64,000 nucleotides of DNA from Planctomycetia bacterium (GTDB taxonomy: Bacteria; Planctomycetota; Planctomycetia; Gemmatales; Gemmataceae): assembly GCA_005772955.1 (NCBI GenBank), contig SXID01000250.1, forward strand, positions 1 through 64,000, read 5' to 3'. Of the stretch, positions 12,389 to 54,484 are shown in pieces. A program made the translations under genes and the position numbers. Below the pieces are notes generated by a model that did no database searches, had not been told where the DNA came from, and saw nothing but the letters and a program-made list of their open reading frames with translations. How positions within the stretch are numbered: position 1 is the first letter of the stretch; every line of letters starts with the position of its first letter.

Positions 12389-14323
12389 ATGATTCGTTCT
12401 CTGCTTCTCGCCGGCCTCACAGCTGGTCTCCTCTGGGCCGCGGCCCACACGTCGTCGGCCGCCGACGAACCGAAGACAACCGGCGGTATCACGCCGCAGA
12501 CGGCGAAAATCAACGAACTGATCGCGAAGAACTGGGAGGCCGCCGGCATCACGAAGCCAGCCGCGAAGTCCACCGATCATGAGTATATGCGGCGGGTGTT
12601 CCTCGACCTGATCGGCCGCATCCCAACTGTCGAAGAGATCGTCGACTTCGAGCAGGACAAGTCTGCGAACAAGCGCGTCAAACTCGTCCAGCGGTTGCTG
12701 AATGAGAAGAAGTACGCCCCGAAGGTTGGCGGCAAGACCGTGACCGCAGTGCCGGGTCTCGCGAAGTTCCCGATCGACTACTCGGCCGCGTACGCCCGCA
12801 ATTTCGCGGAAATCTGGTCCGTGTGGCTGCTGACACGCAGCGGCGTGGACGCGATCTACCGCGAACAACTGATGATGTGGCTCGAAGACCAACTCGATAC
12901 CAACGCTCCGTATCGCGAGTTCGTGACGGGCTTGATCACCGCGACCGGCAAAAGTAACGAGAATGGCGCGGTTCACTTCGTGTTCCGGCACCTTGGCGAT
13001 CCGATCACGGCTGACATGAAGGGCCAGAAGGTCGATCTCGAAGAGTTTGGCAAGTACGACAACGTGCCGGTCACGTCGCGCGTCACCAAGTTCTTCCTCG
13101 GCATCCAAACGCAGTGTACCCAGTGCCACGACCACCCGCAGGCGAAGGAGTGGCTCCAGGCCGACTTCTGGGGCGTGAATGCGTTCTTCCGACAGACCGA
13201 GAAGGTCGGCACGCAGAACACCATGCAGAAGAAGGCCGCGACGGTGAACTACGTCGAACTGAGGGAGATGCCGAACTGGAACAAGAAAGGCATGGTGCTG
13301 TTCGAGCGCCGCGACGGGCAGCGTAAGGCTTCGTTCCCGGTGATGCTCAAGGACATCGCGCAGGCCGAAAAGGGCGAGAAGTCCGCGAAGAACCTGATCT
13401 CCACCCCGGCGACGAACAAGACCCGGCGCCAGATGCTCTCCGATTGGGTACTCCAGCACGACAACTTTGAGCGTGCGTACGTGAACCGCATGTGGGGCCA
13501 CTTGTTCGGTCGCGGGCTTCAGAAGGATTCGACCGTTGACGACTTCAAGAGCGACAACGAAGTGGTTCACCCTGAACTGCTCGCGTACCTGGGCGAACAG
13601 TTCAAGCAATACAACCACGACACGAAGAAGCTCCTCGAATGGCTTTGCACCAGCGACGTGTACCAACTGAGCCACGTGGCGGGCACGACGAAGGTCGGCA
13701 AGAAGTCGCAGACCGACTCGGAGTTCGACCCGTACTTCGCCCGGATGCCGCTGAAGGCGATGTCTCCCGAAGTGCTGTTCGATTCGCTGTCACTCGCGAC
13801 CCGTGCCGAATCCCGTCTCAGCGCGGATGGCTACAAGACCCTCAAGGCCCAGTGGACTGGCCGTCTCGTTCGCAACTTCGGTGACGATGAGGGCAACGAG
13901 CTGAGCTTCAACGGCACCGTGGTTCAGGCGCTGTTGCTGATGAACGGCAAGGATCTGAACGACCAGGTCGGCACCGCGAAAGACAAGGGCGTCGTCTCCG
14001 AGGTCGTGAAGAAGCACAAGGGGAACCCGTTTGGCATCTACGACGAACTGTTCATGATGACCGTGAGCCGGCACCCGTCGAAGGAAGAGTTGACCAGACT
14101 CGAACAGGTGCGTACCGGGCGGGCGACCATCAACCTCGGCACACCGTCCACCGGTTCCAGCGGCCCGCCCCCGAAGGGCAAGGGACCGAACCCGAAGGGG
14201 CCGGTCGCCCCGCCCGCGGGTGGCATCACGGTCGTCCCCGGCGCGATGCCAGACGACGTGACTTTCTACCAGGACGTGTTCTGGGCACTGCTCAACACGA
14301 ACGAGTTCATGCTGAACCACTAA
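12389..14323 (+). CDS. DUF1549/DUF1553 domain protein
   Basis: Signal peptide MIRSLLLAGLTAGLLWAAAHTSSAADE; QCTQCHDHPQAKEW; YVNRMWGHLFGRGL. Confidence 0.9.
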   Translation: MIRSLLLAGLTAGLLWAAAHTSSAADEPKTTGGITPQTAKINELIAKNWEAAGITKPAAKSTDHEYMRRVFLDLIGRIPTVEEIVDFEQDKSANKRVKLVQRLLNEKKYAPKVGGKTVTAVPGLAKFPIDYSAAYARNFAEIWSVWLLTRSGVDAIYREQLMMWLEDQLDTNAPYREFVTGLITATGKSNENGAVHFVFRHLGDPITADMKGQKVDLEEFGKYDNVPVTSRVTKFFLGIQTQCTQCHDHPQAKEWLQADFWGVNAFFRQTEKVGTQNTMQKKAATVNYVELREMPNWNKKGMVLFERRDGQRKASFPVMLKDIAQAEKGEKSAKNLISTPATNKTRRQMLSDWVLQHDNFERAYVNRMWGHLFGRGLQKDSTVDDFKSDNEVVHPELLAYLGEQFKQYNHDTKKLLEWLCTSDVYQLSHVAGTTKVGKKSQTDSEFDPYFARMPLKAMSPEVLFDSLSLATRAESRLSADGYKTLKAQWTGRLVRNFGDDEGNELSFNGTVVQALLLMNGKDLNDQVGTAKDKGVVSEVVKKHKGNPFGIYDELFMMTVSRHPSKEELTRLEQVRTGRATINLGTPSTGSSGPPPKGKGPNPKGPVAPPAGGITVVPGAMPDDVTFYQDVFWALLNTNEFMLNH

Positions 14324-14482: not shown

Positions 14483-15688
14483 TCACGGGGCCGGTTCGAC
14501 GGCCGTCGCCACCAGATACGGCTTCGAGAGTCCCGTGCGTGTGGTCGCGGTGCCGGACACATCGACACGCTTGCCGAGGTGGCGCTCCGGGTCGATCCCC
14601 TGTCCGGCAACCACGTACATCTTCACGATTCCTTGCGGCGCTTCGAGCACGTACAGCGCACGGGTTGGGCCGTCCGGCGTGAGCGTGGAGCGGCGAAGAA
14701 TCCCCGTGCCCGAGACCTGCGCGCGGTCATCGTTCGCGCCTGCGGCCGGCGGGAGCGATTCTGGGGTGCCCGGGCGCACCCCGCGATCCTCCTTTGCTGG
14801 TGGTTTCAGCAGGTTCGGCGGTGGCGGAACCTGCTTTGTCGTTCCGCCCGCGTTCCGCTTCTTCTCGCGGAGCGTGTGAATGCGGGTGTAGCACAGGTTC
14901 GCGATGTCGTGATCGCCACCGGGGCGGTTCATCTCTTCCGCGAGTTGGAAGTACAACTTCTCCGCGTCCGCGAGCCGATTCTCGCGCTCCGCGACTTCGG
15001 CCTGTGCCCAGAGCGGGTGATTCACGGCAGGCTTGCCGGAAGTCACGCCACCGGTCGCGGGTGTGATCGACGGGCCAGGAACGCTCACCAGCGGCCCACC
15101 AGCGGGCGTCGTCGAAGGACTCCCGCTCGGCGGAACCGGGTTGACGGTCTCGTTCACGCGCACTGTGAAATTGTTGTTCGCGGGCTTCTCGAACTGCACC
15201 GCGGTCTTCGGGACGTAGCGCACGTCGCCGTGTGGCGGTGTGATCGGATACCACGTCTTCCCTGCGAACGTGACCTTCGGCCCGATCACGCAGAACTGCG
15301 CGCCTTGCGGCACCTTCACGCGGCGAATGTCGAGCGGCTGCGCCAGGCCCACCTTGCCGGCTGCGACCGTGATTTCGCCATCGGTCTCGACGAACACGTT
15401 CTTCGGCGTGGGTCGTTCGGGCGCCGGGTCTTCGATGAACTGCGTGGGCACCCAGCTTAGCGACCCCTGCGGCGCGGTGATTGCGAGCCAGCCGTTGCCT
15501 TCTTCTTTTTCGACGATGACGGTTGTGCCCCGCGGTAATGATCCTGTGTCCGGGAACGTGTCGCTGGGTCCAGCGCGGAGCTTGACTTCGCTATCGATGA
15601 CGATGGCCTTGTACGCGATTGGTTCCGCCGCGCCTGTGTATGACGCGAACAGAGCCACGAACAGCCCGGCGAACGGGATTCGACGCAT
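14483..15688 (-). CDS. Secreted SH3-domain protein
   Basis: MRRIPFAGLFVALFASYTGAAEP signal; VKLRAGPSDTFPDTGSLPRGTTVIVEKEEGNGWLAI SH3b pattern. Confidence 0.8.
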   Translation of the reverse strand: MRRIPFAGLFVALFASYTGAAEPIAYKAIVIDSEVKLRAGPSDTFPDTGSLPRGTTVIVEKEEGNGWLAITAPQGSLSWVPTQFIEDPAPERPTPKNVFVETDGEITVAAGKVGLAQPLDIRRVKVPQGAQFCVIGPKVTFAGKTWYPITPPHGDVRYVPKTAVQFEKPANNNFTVRVNETVNPVPPSGSPSTTPAGGPLVSVPGPSITPATGGVTSGKPAVNHPLWAQAEVAERENRLADAEKLYFQLAEEMNRPGGDHDIANLCYTRIHTLREKKRNAGGTTKQVPPPPNLLKPPAKEDRGVRPGTPESLPPAAGANDDRAQVSGTGILRRSTLTPDGPTRALYVLEAPQGIVKMYVVAGQGIDPERHLGKRVDVSGTATTRTGLSKPYLVATAVEPAP

Positions 15689-25366: not shown

Positions 25367-26797
25367 TTATTTTTGGCCCTCCGGTTTCTTCCTCCGCTTG
25401 CGGAGTTCTTCGAGGCGCGCCTTGATCTTCGCCTCGTGGCCGCGGTCGGTGGGCTGATAATACTCCGCGTCCGTCGGTATGTACTCCTGATCCACCCAGC
25501 CGCCCTCAAAGTCGTGGGCGTACTTGTAACCCACGCCGTGGCCCAACACCTCCTTCGCCCCGCGATAGCTCTTGTCGCGCAGGTGCAGCGGCACCGGGAG
25601 CGTCCGGCCCTCCTTCACGTCTTTCGCTGCGGCTTCGCCCGCCATGTAGCTCGCGTTCGACTTCTGCGCTGTCGCGAGGTACGTTACCGCGTGCGCGAGG
25701 TTGATGCGACACTCAGGCAAGCCGACCTTCTCCACCGCGTCCCACGCCGCGTTGGCGAGCACCAGGCCGAACGGGTCCGCGTTACCCACGTCCTCTGATG
25801 CAAAGATCACCAATCGCCGCGCGACGAATCGCGGGTCTTCGCCACCTTCCAACATGCGCGCCATCCAGTAGAGCGCCGCGTCCGGGTCGCTTCCGCGAAG
25901 GCTCTTGATGAAAGCGCTCGCGGTGTCGTAGTGCGTGTCGCCGGTCGGGTCGAACTCGATCACTTTCCGCTGGATGCTGTCTTGCGCGAGTTGTAGGTCG
26001 AAGAGGACGCGAGAAGAACCTACCTCCCCAACCCCCTTCCCTGCAGCGAGGGGGGTTGGGGAGGTGGGTCTTGCGTTCTCCGGCGCGAACGCCGACTTCA
26101 CGCCGATCTCCACCGCTGTGAGAGCGCGGCGGGCGTCGCCGTCGCACGCTTCCACCAGGAACGCGAGCGCGTCGTCGGTGACCGTCACGTTCTGGTTGCC
26201 GAGGCCGCGGTCCTTGTCCGACAACGCTCGCGTGATTAGCGTGCGGCAGTCGTCGCGACTTAGCGGCTGGAATTGGAAGATCTGACTCCGCGACAGCAGC
26301 GGAGTGCTGATCGCAAAGAACGGGTTCTGCGTGGTCGCGCCGATCAGGATCACCACGCCGTCTTCCACGTCTGGCAAAAGCACGTCTTGTTGCGCCCGAT
26401 TGAAGCGATGGATTTCGTCGATGAACAGGATCGTGCGTTCACCGAGTTCTTCGAGATGCCCGCGGGCTTCGGTGAGCAGTTCGCGCACCTCCTTGATACC
26501 GGCTGCGACCGCGTTCAGTGGCTTGAAACGGCTCTCTGTGTGGTTCGCGATGACGTGCGCAAGAGCGGTTTTGCCGCACCCCGGTGGGCCGTAGAATAGT
26601 AGCGAGTTCAGGCGGTCTGCTAACAGCATTCGGCGGAGCAACTTGCCCGGACCAAGGAAGTGGGATTGCCCGACGTACTCGTCGAGCGTCCGCGGACGCA
26701 TTCGCGCGGCGAGCGGGCGCGCCTTCAGACGGTTCTCTTCGCGCAGGTCGTTGAACAGATCCATGAGCGGAGCCTCGGGGTGAGGGACTCCGCTCAT
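25367..26797 (-). CDS. rarA: Replication-associated recombination protein A (AAA ATPase)
   Basis: YGPPGCGKTALAHVIA; FIDEIHRFNRAQQD; SLRGSDPDAALYWMARMLEGGEDPRFVARRLVIFASEDVGNADP. Confidence 0.95.
   Translation of the reverse strand: MSGVPHPEAPLMDLFNDLREENRLKARPLAARMRPRTLDEYVGQSHFLGPGKLLRRMLLADRLNSLLFYGPPGCGKTALAHVIANHTESRFKPLNAVAAGIKEVRELLTEARGHLEELGERTILFIDEIHRFNRAQQDVLLPDVEDGVVILIGATTQNPFFAISTPLLSRSQIFQFQPLSRDDCRTLITRALSDKDRGLGNQNVTVTDDALAFLVEACDGDARRALTAVEIGVKSAFAPENARPTSPTPLAAGKGVGEVGSSRVLFDLQLAQDSIQRKVIEFDPTGDTHYDTASAFIKSLRGSDPDAALYWMARMLEGGEDPRFVARRLVIFASEDVGNADPFGLVLANAAWDAVEKVGLPECRINLAHAVTYLATAQKSNASYMAGEAAAKDVKEGRTLPVPLHLRDKSYRGAKEVLGHGVGYKYAHDFEGGWVDQEYIPTDAEYYQPTDRGHEAKIKARLEELRKRRKKPEGQK
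26018..26069. repeat. Palindromic element inserted in frame inside rarA
   Basis: acctacctccccaaccccctt ccctgcagcg aggggggttggggaggtgggt; encodes PTSPTPLAAGKGVGEVG within RarA. Confidence 0.85.
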
Positions 26798-34450: not shown

Positions 34451-35275
34451 TTATTCGCGTCGGATGCCCGCAACTTGCATCAAATCGGCTGTCGATTGGT
34501 ACGCTTCCGTTACCCACGCGACGATTTTTTCAGGCTCGGGCGAATACTCCAGTTCGATGCTGATAGCGCCCTTGATCCCCAGCGCGGCGATCTCCTTGAG
34601 GTAAGGCACGAAGTCCACCACTCCGCGACCCGGCGGCAAATCGCCATGAACCTTCCCGTCGCAATCGCTGATGTGGACATGGATCGCCTTGCCCTTCAAG
34701 GCGCGTAGCTCCTCCGGCTTCGTCCCTGCGAGGCACAGGTGCGAAATGTCTATGTTCGCACTCACGGCGGGATGGTTCACGGCGTCGATGAACCGTACCA
34801 TGTTCGGCACGTCGTTGAGCAGCGACAGTTTGAATGGCTCTAACTCAAGCGCGATTTCGAGTCCGAGTTGCGCAGCGTAATCGCCGAGCGTTTTCAAGTG
34901 TGCGACACCGGACTTCCACTGCTCTGCGGGCGGGATGACTTGCCGCTCCCAGATGTATTCGCCGAGAACCAGCAGCAGATTCTTCGCTCCTAACTCGTAG
35001 CAGAAGTCGAGGTACGCGCGGCACCGGTCCATGTGAAACCGCTGTACGCTGGGGTTGAAGTCGATCAGCCCAACCGCGACGCACGCGACGCTCACGATCG
35101 GCAGTCCGACCCGCTCGCACTCGGTGCGGATCAGTTTCCGCTCGCGCGCGCAGGTGTCGAGTGGGTCCGCGAATATGTCGATGGTGTCGAATCCGATGGC
35201 CTTCGTCTGGTGGATTCCGAAGGCGGTGCCTTTGCCCGCTTGCGCCCAGGCTGAGTTGATAAGTCCGAGTTTCAT
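34451..35275 (-). CDS. Sugar phosphate isomerase/epimerase (xylose isomerase-like TIM barrel)
   Basis: MKLGLINSAWAQAGKGTAFGIHQTKAIGFDTIDIFADP...VSANIDISHLCLAG...SIELEYSPEPEKIVAWV. Confidence 0.85.
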   Translation of the reverse strand: MKLGLINSAWAQAGKGTAFGIHQTKAIGFDTIDIFADPLDTCARERKLIRTECERVGLPIVSVACVAVGLIDFNPSVQRFHMDRCRAYLDFCYELGAKNLLLVLGEYIWERQVIPPAEQWKSGVAHLKTLGDYAAQLGLEIALELEPFKLSLLNDVPNMVRFIDAVNHPAVSANIDISHLCLAGTKPEELRALKGKAIHVHISDCDGKVHGDLPPGRGVVDFVPYLKEIAALGIKGAISIELEYSPEPEKIVAWVTEAYQSTADLMQVAGIRRE

Positions 35276-35395
35276 GGTCTTTGGTGTTTCGTGTTTGGTG
35301 TTTGGTGAATGTTGTGGTCGCTTACGCTCCCAACTCACCCACAGACTAAACACCAAACACCAAACACCAAACACCAAACACCAAACACCAGACAC
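35276..35395. repeat. Inverted-repeat element with tandem heptamer (AAACACC)6
   Basis: ctttggtgtttcgtgtttggtgtttggtg ... aaacacc x6 at 35348-35389; upstream of the minus-strand isomerase start at 35275. Confidence 0.85.
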
Positions 35396-35464: not shown

Positions 35465-36343
35465 TTGATGCTTGAACACCTCAGTACCGCTGGTTACCAC
35501 TACCTCGGCGTGTTCACCGCCCTGATCGCCTCGGCGACGGTTGTCCCGGTGCCGGAGGAGTTGCCGGTCATCACGGCCGGAATCATGGTTGGGCACTCGG
35601 ACACGGAGTTCACCGGCGACCAGCGAGACGACCTGAGGAGGTTGCGATGGTGGATCATGTTGCCAGTACTGATGGCCGGTGTAGTGATTGGCGACGGCGC
35701 ACTCTACACGATCGGCCGGTTGTGGGGGCGCCGATTGCTCAACCTGAAATGGGTGCAGCGTCGGGTCATCACCCCGGAGAAACGCGACCAGATCGAGAAG
35801 AACTTCCACGACCGCGGAATCATGATCCTCTTGGGTGCCCGCTTGCTGCCGGGCATCCGAGGTCCGATTTTCATCATGGCCGGGGTACTCCGGGTTCCAC
35901 TCGGCCGCTTCATGCTTGCGGACGCGATCTACGCCATTCCGCTCGTCAACATTCTGTTCTGGCTGTCGTATTTCCTCACCGATCAGGTGCTGTTGATCTT
36001 CAATAAGATCAATGAGTTCAAGCCGCTCGTGATTGTCGCGATCTTGTCTGGAATCGCGGGCGCGATGATCCACCGGTACATCTTCACGAGACGTGTCTCG
36101 ACGGGTGAGCCGCCGCACGTGCCGGACATCATCGCGAAGCCCGCGGTCGCGATGGGACACGCGGTTGAGAAGGCGGTCGAGATGGCGGTGGACACGGTCA
36201 CCGGCCGGCACCACGACAGACCGCACGAAGCGCCACCCTCCGACGTCGAGGCCAACCAGGGGTTCGGCATCCGCACGCAGGAGCCAAGCGCGAATGGCAC
36301 CGTGGAACAAGGAAGCGAGAAGAAACCCGACGAGAAGACGTGA
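35465..36343 (+). CDS. DedA family membrane protein
   Basis: ATVVPVPEELPVITAGIMVG; GDGALYTIGRLWG; LLGARLLPGIRGPIFIMAGVLRVPLGRFMLAD. Confidence 0.9.
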   Translation: MMLEHLSTAGYHYLGVFTALIASATVVPVPEELPVITAGIMVGHSDTEFTGDQRDDLRRLRWWIMLPVLMAGVVIGDGALYTIGRLWGRRLLNLKWVQRRVITPEKRDQIEKNFHDRGIMILLGARLLPGIRGPIFIMAGVLRVPLGRFMLADAIYAIPLVNILFWLSYFLTDQVLLIFNKINEFKPLVIVAILSGIAGAMIHRYIFTRRVSTGEPPHVPDIIAKPAVAMGHAVEKAVEMAVDTVTGRHHDRPHEAPPSDVEANQGFGIRTQEPSANGTVEQGSEKKPDEKT

Positions 36344-36437
36344 AGGTAGGCGACTCGCTCCGCGAGTCGCGCCTTCGCGCGTGTTGCAGGCACCCGTCGC
36401 GTCCAGCGAGTCACTCGCGGAGCGAGTGACCTACCTT
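36343..36437. repeat. Long palindromic element between convergent genes
   Basis: aaggtaggcgactcgctccgcgagtcgc ... gcgagtcactcgcggagcgagtgacctacctt. Confidence 0.88.
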
Positions 36438-54396: not shown

Positions 54397-54484
54397 GGTG
54401 AGTGGGGGGCGTAAGCCCTCTGATAACTTTCCCAACTCGAACGGACTGGGGAGCTGATCAGGGGGCTTACGCCCCCCGCTCACC
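54397..54484. repeat. Long palindromic element
   Basis: ggtgagtggggggcgtaagccctctgat ... atcagggggcttacgccccccgctcacc. Confidence 0.9.

Follow-up and report, generated by a model that had tools for sequence, protein, structure and literature searches.

Results

A palindrome within rarA

The window, by which we mean the whole 64,000-nt stretch of planctomycete DNA analysed here, contains a rarA/mgsA gene that carries a long palindrome inside its coding region. The features concerned are as follows.

25367-26797, minus strand: rarA/mgsA, 476 aa in one open frame, with Pfam matches to MgsA_C (9.7e-69), AAA_assoc_2 and AAA; a relative of PDB entry 3pvs
26013-26074, no strand assigned: element of repeat family A including its 5-nt outer ends; the consensus ends are GAAGA...TCTTC, and the right end has diverged in the rarA copy
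26018-26043, plus strand: left arm of the palindrome (inverted repeat I13), 88% complementary to the right arm, with no gap between the arms
26044-26069, plus strand: right arm of the palindrome (inverted repeat I13)

A preliminary description had placed a palindrome with a stem of about 20 bp at 26018-26069, in frame within rarA, and this was confirmed in an otherwise intact gene: the sequence is as quoted there, the 476-codon frame is open, and the two arms are each 26 nt long, with 88% complementarity and zero spacer. The palindrome does occupy that span, but the conserved element is 5 nt longer on each side; matches in the rest of the genome begin at 26013, and the bounds 26013-26074 follow from the 110 ends of other copies, at which conservation reaches background 6 nt outside the motif ACCT. 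As DNA the palindrome folds with a z-score of -6.5, and as RNA with -5.5; none of 200 shuffled sequences folds equally well, and the RNA hairpin amounts to -46.8 kcal/mol. The palindrome scores 17; at a score of at least 16, a 463-kb sample of the genome holds 80 palindromes of many kinds, compared with none in a first-order Markov control.

The insert encodes approximately residues 243-262 of RarA (RPTSPTPLAAGKGVGEVGSS), and the peptide specific to it, by predicted translation, is PTSPTPLAAGKGVGEVG. Alignment to 3pvs and other RarA proteins shows that the insert opens up the loop that follows the last lid helix. The preliminary description had seen an inter-domain boundary here; the loop lies inside AAA_assoc_2 (201-301) and not exactly at the border of the C-terminal domain. 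In the AlphaFold model of RarA (mean pLDDT 86), residues 242-262 are predicted as coil with pLDDT mostly below 50, including 246-250 and 252-260. This coil lies between a strand that starts at residue 264 and a helix whose last residue is 236; a short turn follows the helix at 239-241. The insert therefore occupies a predicted disordered loop, in agreement with the surface linker suggested beforehand.

A repeat family of the genus

Exact 14-mers of the rarA palindrome occur nowhere else in the genome, and the palindrome could on that strict search have been taken as unique; this was rejected when an alignment search found many diverged copies. In its own genome (5.93 Mb, 278 contigs), this search returned 78 DNA matches to the repeat, which we call family A, and a pattern for its 5' half gave 143 matches genome-wide, a number that counts some sites more than once through overlapping readings, with none for the reversed pattern. 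The palindrome family is thus present at many other places in the genome, as the preliminary reading required, and often in frame. The element counts given below cover part of the genome, namely the 463-kb sample and 40 stretches around family A matches.

In the family A unit, a C-rich/G-rich hairpin, CCCCCCTCCCTGAAGGGAGGGGGG, comes after GAAGAACCTACCCCCC(C)AA; a close variant carries CCTCTCCCC, and a variant named A2 has the sequence CCTCTCCCCCCAACCCCCTCCCCTAAGAAGGGAGGGGG. Head-to-head pairs of such units, separated by a variable spacer of 5-80 nt, make up most copies; in rarA the copy has collapsed to one hairpin. At the 110 ends, conservation stops 5 nt beyond ACCT, with a weak preference for G further out. 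Target duplications of 3-8 nt were sought in 55 dimers, and at no offset did as many as three of them have one. Two pairs of dimers at unrelated loci have spacers that are 94% identical over 49 and 69 nt, and these shared spacers suggest that the dimer may move as a unit. A miniature element of a DDE transposase was considered and rejected, since inverted ends are present but the target-site duplication is absent from the 55 dimers.

Of the 19 genomes in the genus, 14 contain family A, and the 22 genomes searched outside the genus gave no copy; within this set the family is confined to one planctomycete genus. Its mobility is inferred from presence and absence, from copy number and from the spacers held in common.

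In-frame copies inside genes

The listing of family A comprised 76 elements, two of which were listed twice through overlapping loci, leaving 74 unique ones. According to a codon-usage model, on which the in-frame calls rest for genes without a Pfam test, 29 of these 74 lie in frame between coding flanks. Besides rarA, nine genes with in-frame copies (long frames of the 463-kb sample) were tested against Pfam, and eight received support: acyltransferase/AMP-binding, polyprenyl synthase, amine oxidase, tRNA nucleotidyltransferase, type III PKS, sulfatase/BNR, FAD-oxidase and glycosyltransferase genes. In the tested genes the insert often falls between two domains, and a palindrome of family C occupies a similar linker in a second FAD-oxidase. 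Translated family A inserts are predicted to contain 19% Pro and 17% Gly.

Among the out-of-frame elements with co-directional coding flanks, 17 of 19 unique ones lie between genes, the stop codon of the upstream gene preceding the element core by 2-14 nt. The idea that out-of-frame elements mark broken genes was therefore rejected for 19 of 21 listed elements (17 of 19 unique), these being located just after a stop codon; the remaining two are possible gene breaks, and at most two. Frame is thus kept by 29 of 31 intragenic elements, against an expectation of one third (P about 3e-12), as purifying selection on working genes predicts.

The intragenic share is 10/16 for family A, a count that includes the rarA copy, assigned to the family by hand after a crude family filter had missed it, versus 2/63 for other palindrome families. 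Mere tolerance does not account for this excess. Avoidance of stop codons as the cause of the intragenic location was not supported either: family A offers 2.83 open frames, compared with 2.74 predicted from its composition.

Two further coding loci may be recorded here. A FAD-oxidase/Fer4 gene (L183:12876-16079, plus strand) carries palindromes in frame at two places, 13480-13616 and 15240-15290, and the two differ in type. At L278:657-792, an in-frame family A dimer directly precedes VAFVGDGITDAPALA, which by eye resembles the P domain of a metal P-type ATPase.

Several palindrome families in one loop

RarA was found in 16 of the 19 genomes of the genus, and in 13 of these 16 a palindrome occupies the same loop. 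The palindromes belong to at least three unrelated families, together with two further sequences. Family A is present in this loop in six genomes (G000, G001, G005, G007, G009 and G012), family B (GAGCCGCGACCGTCAGGGAGCG) in two (G003 and G014) and family D (GGCGAGCGGGGGGCGTAAGCCCCC) in three (G008, G015 and G018); both B and D also occur elsewhere among the loci searched. G004, with a C-like sequence, and G006 carry other palindromic inserts, of which no second copy was present among the loci searched, and neither is counted as a proven repeat family. The loop is empty in G002 and G013, and in G016 it holds only GGGGGGGCGGTTCTTC, which resembles a footprint of family A. Alignment showed the inserted stretch to be absent from RarA outside the genus. 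The alignment proposed in the preliminary description thus came out in favour of its reading, the segment being missing from RarA outside the genus as well as from three congeners.

The reading frame is kept in 10 of the 11 inserts that could be judged, each of the ten forming a single open frame; in G005 and G018, rarA is split between contigs at the insert. The exception is G009 (L058), in which G runs of altered length within the family A insert put the two halves of the gene, both well conserved, in two frames; this break may be real or may be a sequencing error. The G012 insert holds several nested palindromes. On a tree of RarA built without the inserts, which is weakly resolved, the insert states require nine changes. 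Because families A, B and D are too different, a single origin is excluded, and these inserts, as compared by sequence, cannot descend from one insertion.

Two of the other family A hosts, tRNA nucleotidyltransferase and type III PKS, were compared among congeners, having been chosen because both carry family A in this genome. The linker of the former and the junction of the N and C domains of the latter likewise contain different inserts, or none, in different congeners.

Separately, three genomes, all at least 97% complete (G010, G011 and G017), gave no RarA match below E 1e-60, and some members of the genus may thus manage without rarA or have replaced it.

RAYT-type transposase genes

The genome under study contains eight Y1_Tnp (RAYT-type) genes. 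Five palindrome families flank one Y1 gene each, in the usual layout of RAYT-REP pairs: family F (GTAGTCATCACGCTCCGCGTGATG) at L035, family Bq (GTAGCCGCGACCCGAAGGGG) at L037, family C at L038, family G at L039 and family B at L040. At least five RAYT-REP pairs are thus present in one genome. Family A flanked a Y1 gene at none of the 36 Y1 loci examined across the genus, and G007, which is rich in family A, gave no Y1 match at the threshold used.

Discussion

We consider it probable that the rarA palindrome is a genus-specific, non-autonomous REPIN-like repeat that is mobilised in trans and survives in frame in disordered linkers. Family A copies would have spread by single-strand transposition of the HUH/Y1 type, with the activity supplied in trans, a route that fits both the hairpin dimers and the absence of target duplications. 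Most insertions into genes would then have been lost, and the survivors would be frame-keeping inserts in disordered, solvent-exposed linkers, where, we propose, they can persist because they are read as Pro/Gly-rich, linker-like peptides. The loop of RarA between the last lid helix and the next strand would be especially permissive, so that unrelated palindrome families could land there in different species.

REP and REPIN sequences with their RAYT (TnpA-REP) transposases, which form the GTAG super-family, are described as short palindromes that occur as inverted dimers, often just past stop codons, and as lacking target duplication (PMC3733652, PMC8266576). Family A resembles them in its short units, often inverted pairs, in its many copies, some of which lie close behind stop codons or within genes, and in the absence of target-site duplication (55 dimers), and palindrome families flanking RAYT genes do exist in this genome. 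It differs in having no RAYT partner at the 36 Y1 loci, in carrying GTAG on the outer, 3' side of the hairpin instead of the 5' side, with GAGAGG replacing GTAG in A2, and in lying in frame within genes far more often than the other palindrome families here.

The preliminary description had called the insert RPE-like, after the palindromic elements of Rickettsia (RPE-1 and others), which are reported in frame and tolerated in many unrelated genes, with several families per genome (PMC10969869, PMC3733652). As an analogy this is apt, and it should imply no membership of a named RPE family: family A is also a repeated palindrome in frame in several unrelated genes (29 copies), and orthologues with an empty site exist (G002, G013 and all RarA outside the genus, with the footprint in G016). 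The present elements, however, belong to another phylum, consist for the most part of paired hairpin units separated by a variable spacer, and unlike the Rickettsia elements they include unrelated families that recur in one linker across species.

REPs inside genes are also reported from several species, in many cases in genes for replication or repair; in one case, that of recB, Xanthomonas campestris and X. oryzae have different REPs at about the same site (PMC3733652). That case and ours have in common that different REPs use one coding site repeatedly, but recB involves one gene in two species, whereas here at least three families occupy one rarA loop in a comparison of 16 genomes, with at least two further genes. 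Palindromes in the mitochondrial genes of Nematomorpha are long inverted repeats within coding sequences; judging by the abstract, and unlike the elements reported here, they are not described as dispersed repeat families inserted at homologous linkers (PMC6649704). In the literature searched on Gemmata, on planctomycete REPINs and on REPINs within genes, PMC3733652 was the only directly relevant report, and its main text mentions neither RarA nor Gemmata. Intragenic REPs as a kind are therefore already known from published work; what is new is the in-frame copy number of one family and the reuse of the same loops by unrelated families throughout a genus.

One flexible loop of the DNA-repair protein RarA, like similar loops in other proteins, seems to be rewritten again and again by small, mobile-looking pieces of DNA. 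The loops of RarA, tRNA nucleotidyltransferase and type III PKS, with and without inserts, provide a species-by-species record of palindromic DNA entering proteins, through which the old question raised by the Rickettsia elements, namely whether such inserts are merely tolerated or change the protein, becomes testable by comparison of orthologues. They also supply native examples of sites at which folded proteins accept extra residues.

A somewhat unlikely, though still credible, alternative is that turnover is directed by the hairpins themselves, an existing palindrome, extruded or formed on the lagging strand, being the preferred target, so that a colonised linker attracts a further hit and exchanges its insert for one of another family. 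The differing inserts between species in the loops of RarA, the CCA-transferase and type III PKS are consistent with such turnover, as are the nested palindromes of the G012 insert and a family J palindrome found in the spacers of three family A elements, against 0.04 expected, although two of the three are copies of each other and the events number about two. Simple structural permissiveness explains the same pattern, the nesting events are few, and no junction proves insertion into an older hairpin. The nested arrangements hint, as a lead only, that hairpins might attract further palindromes. We would give slightly less credence still to the broader scenario in which hairpins are landing sites, a colonised linker is a lasting hot spot where successive selfish palindromes displace each other and go on rewriting one loop of housekeeping proteins, and family A is specialised for living inside proteins.

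Retention of the insert for a function is improbable. The peptide or the mRNA hairpin might tune RarA, for example its oligomerisation or translation rate, with different palindromes filling the same role, and both the frequency of inserts at this loop (13/16 congeners) and their frame conservation (10/11) would agree with this; but the inserts are unrelated in sequence and length between species, three species have none, the frame is broken in G009, and unrelated proteins carry the same elements.

Mitochondrial byp elements and T4 gene 60 are precedents for the removal of an inserted stretch from the product by ribosome bypass or RNA processing. The strong RNA hairpin and the conservation of both halves of G009 rarA despite the frame break within its insert would suit such removal, which we nevertheless regard as very improbable, given that skipping would make the conservation of frame elsewhere unnecessary and that the differences in G009 fall within G runs, where sequencing error is a possible cause. 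An ordinary lineage-specific, low-complexity linker, self-complementary by chance and containing no element, can practically be dismissed, for although Pro/Gly-rich linkers are common, it is the DNA and not just the peptide that matches other copies, whether these are read in different frames or follow a stop codon, non-coding copies have the same DNA ends, and the Markov control contained no palindromes.

Other palindromes in the window

Apart from the insert in rarA, the window contains a palindrome of family D at 54397-54484 (GGTGAGTGGGGGGCGTAAGCCC...), the family also present in rarA of G008, G015 and G018. At 36343-36437 lies a family G palindrome, AAGGTAGGCGACTCGCTCCGCGAGT, as beside the Y1 gene at L039, and at 35275-35395 there is an array, both tandem and inverted, of TTTGGTGTTTGGTG / CACCAAACACCAAA units.
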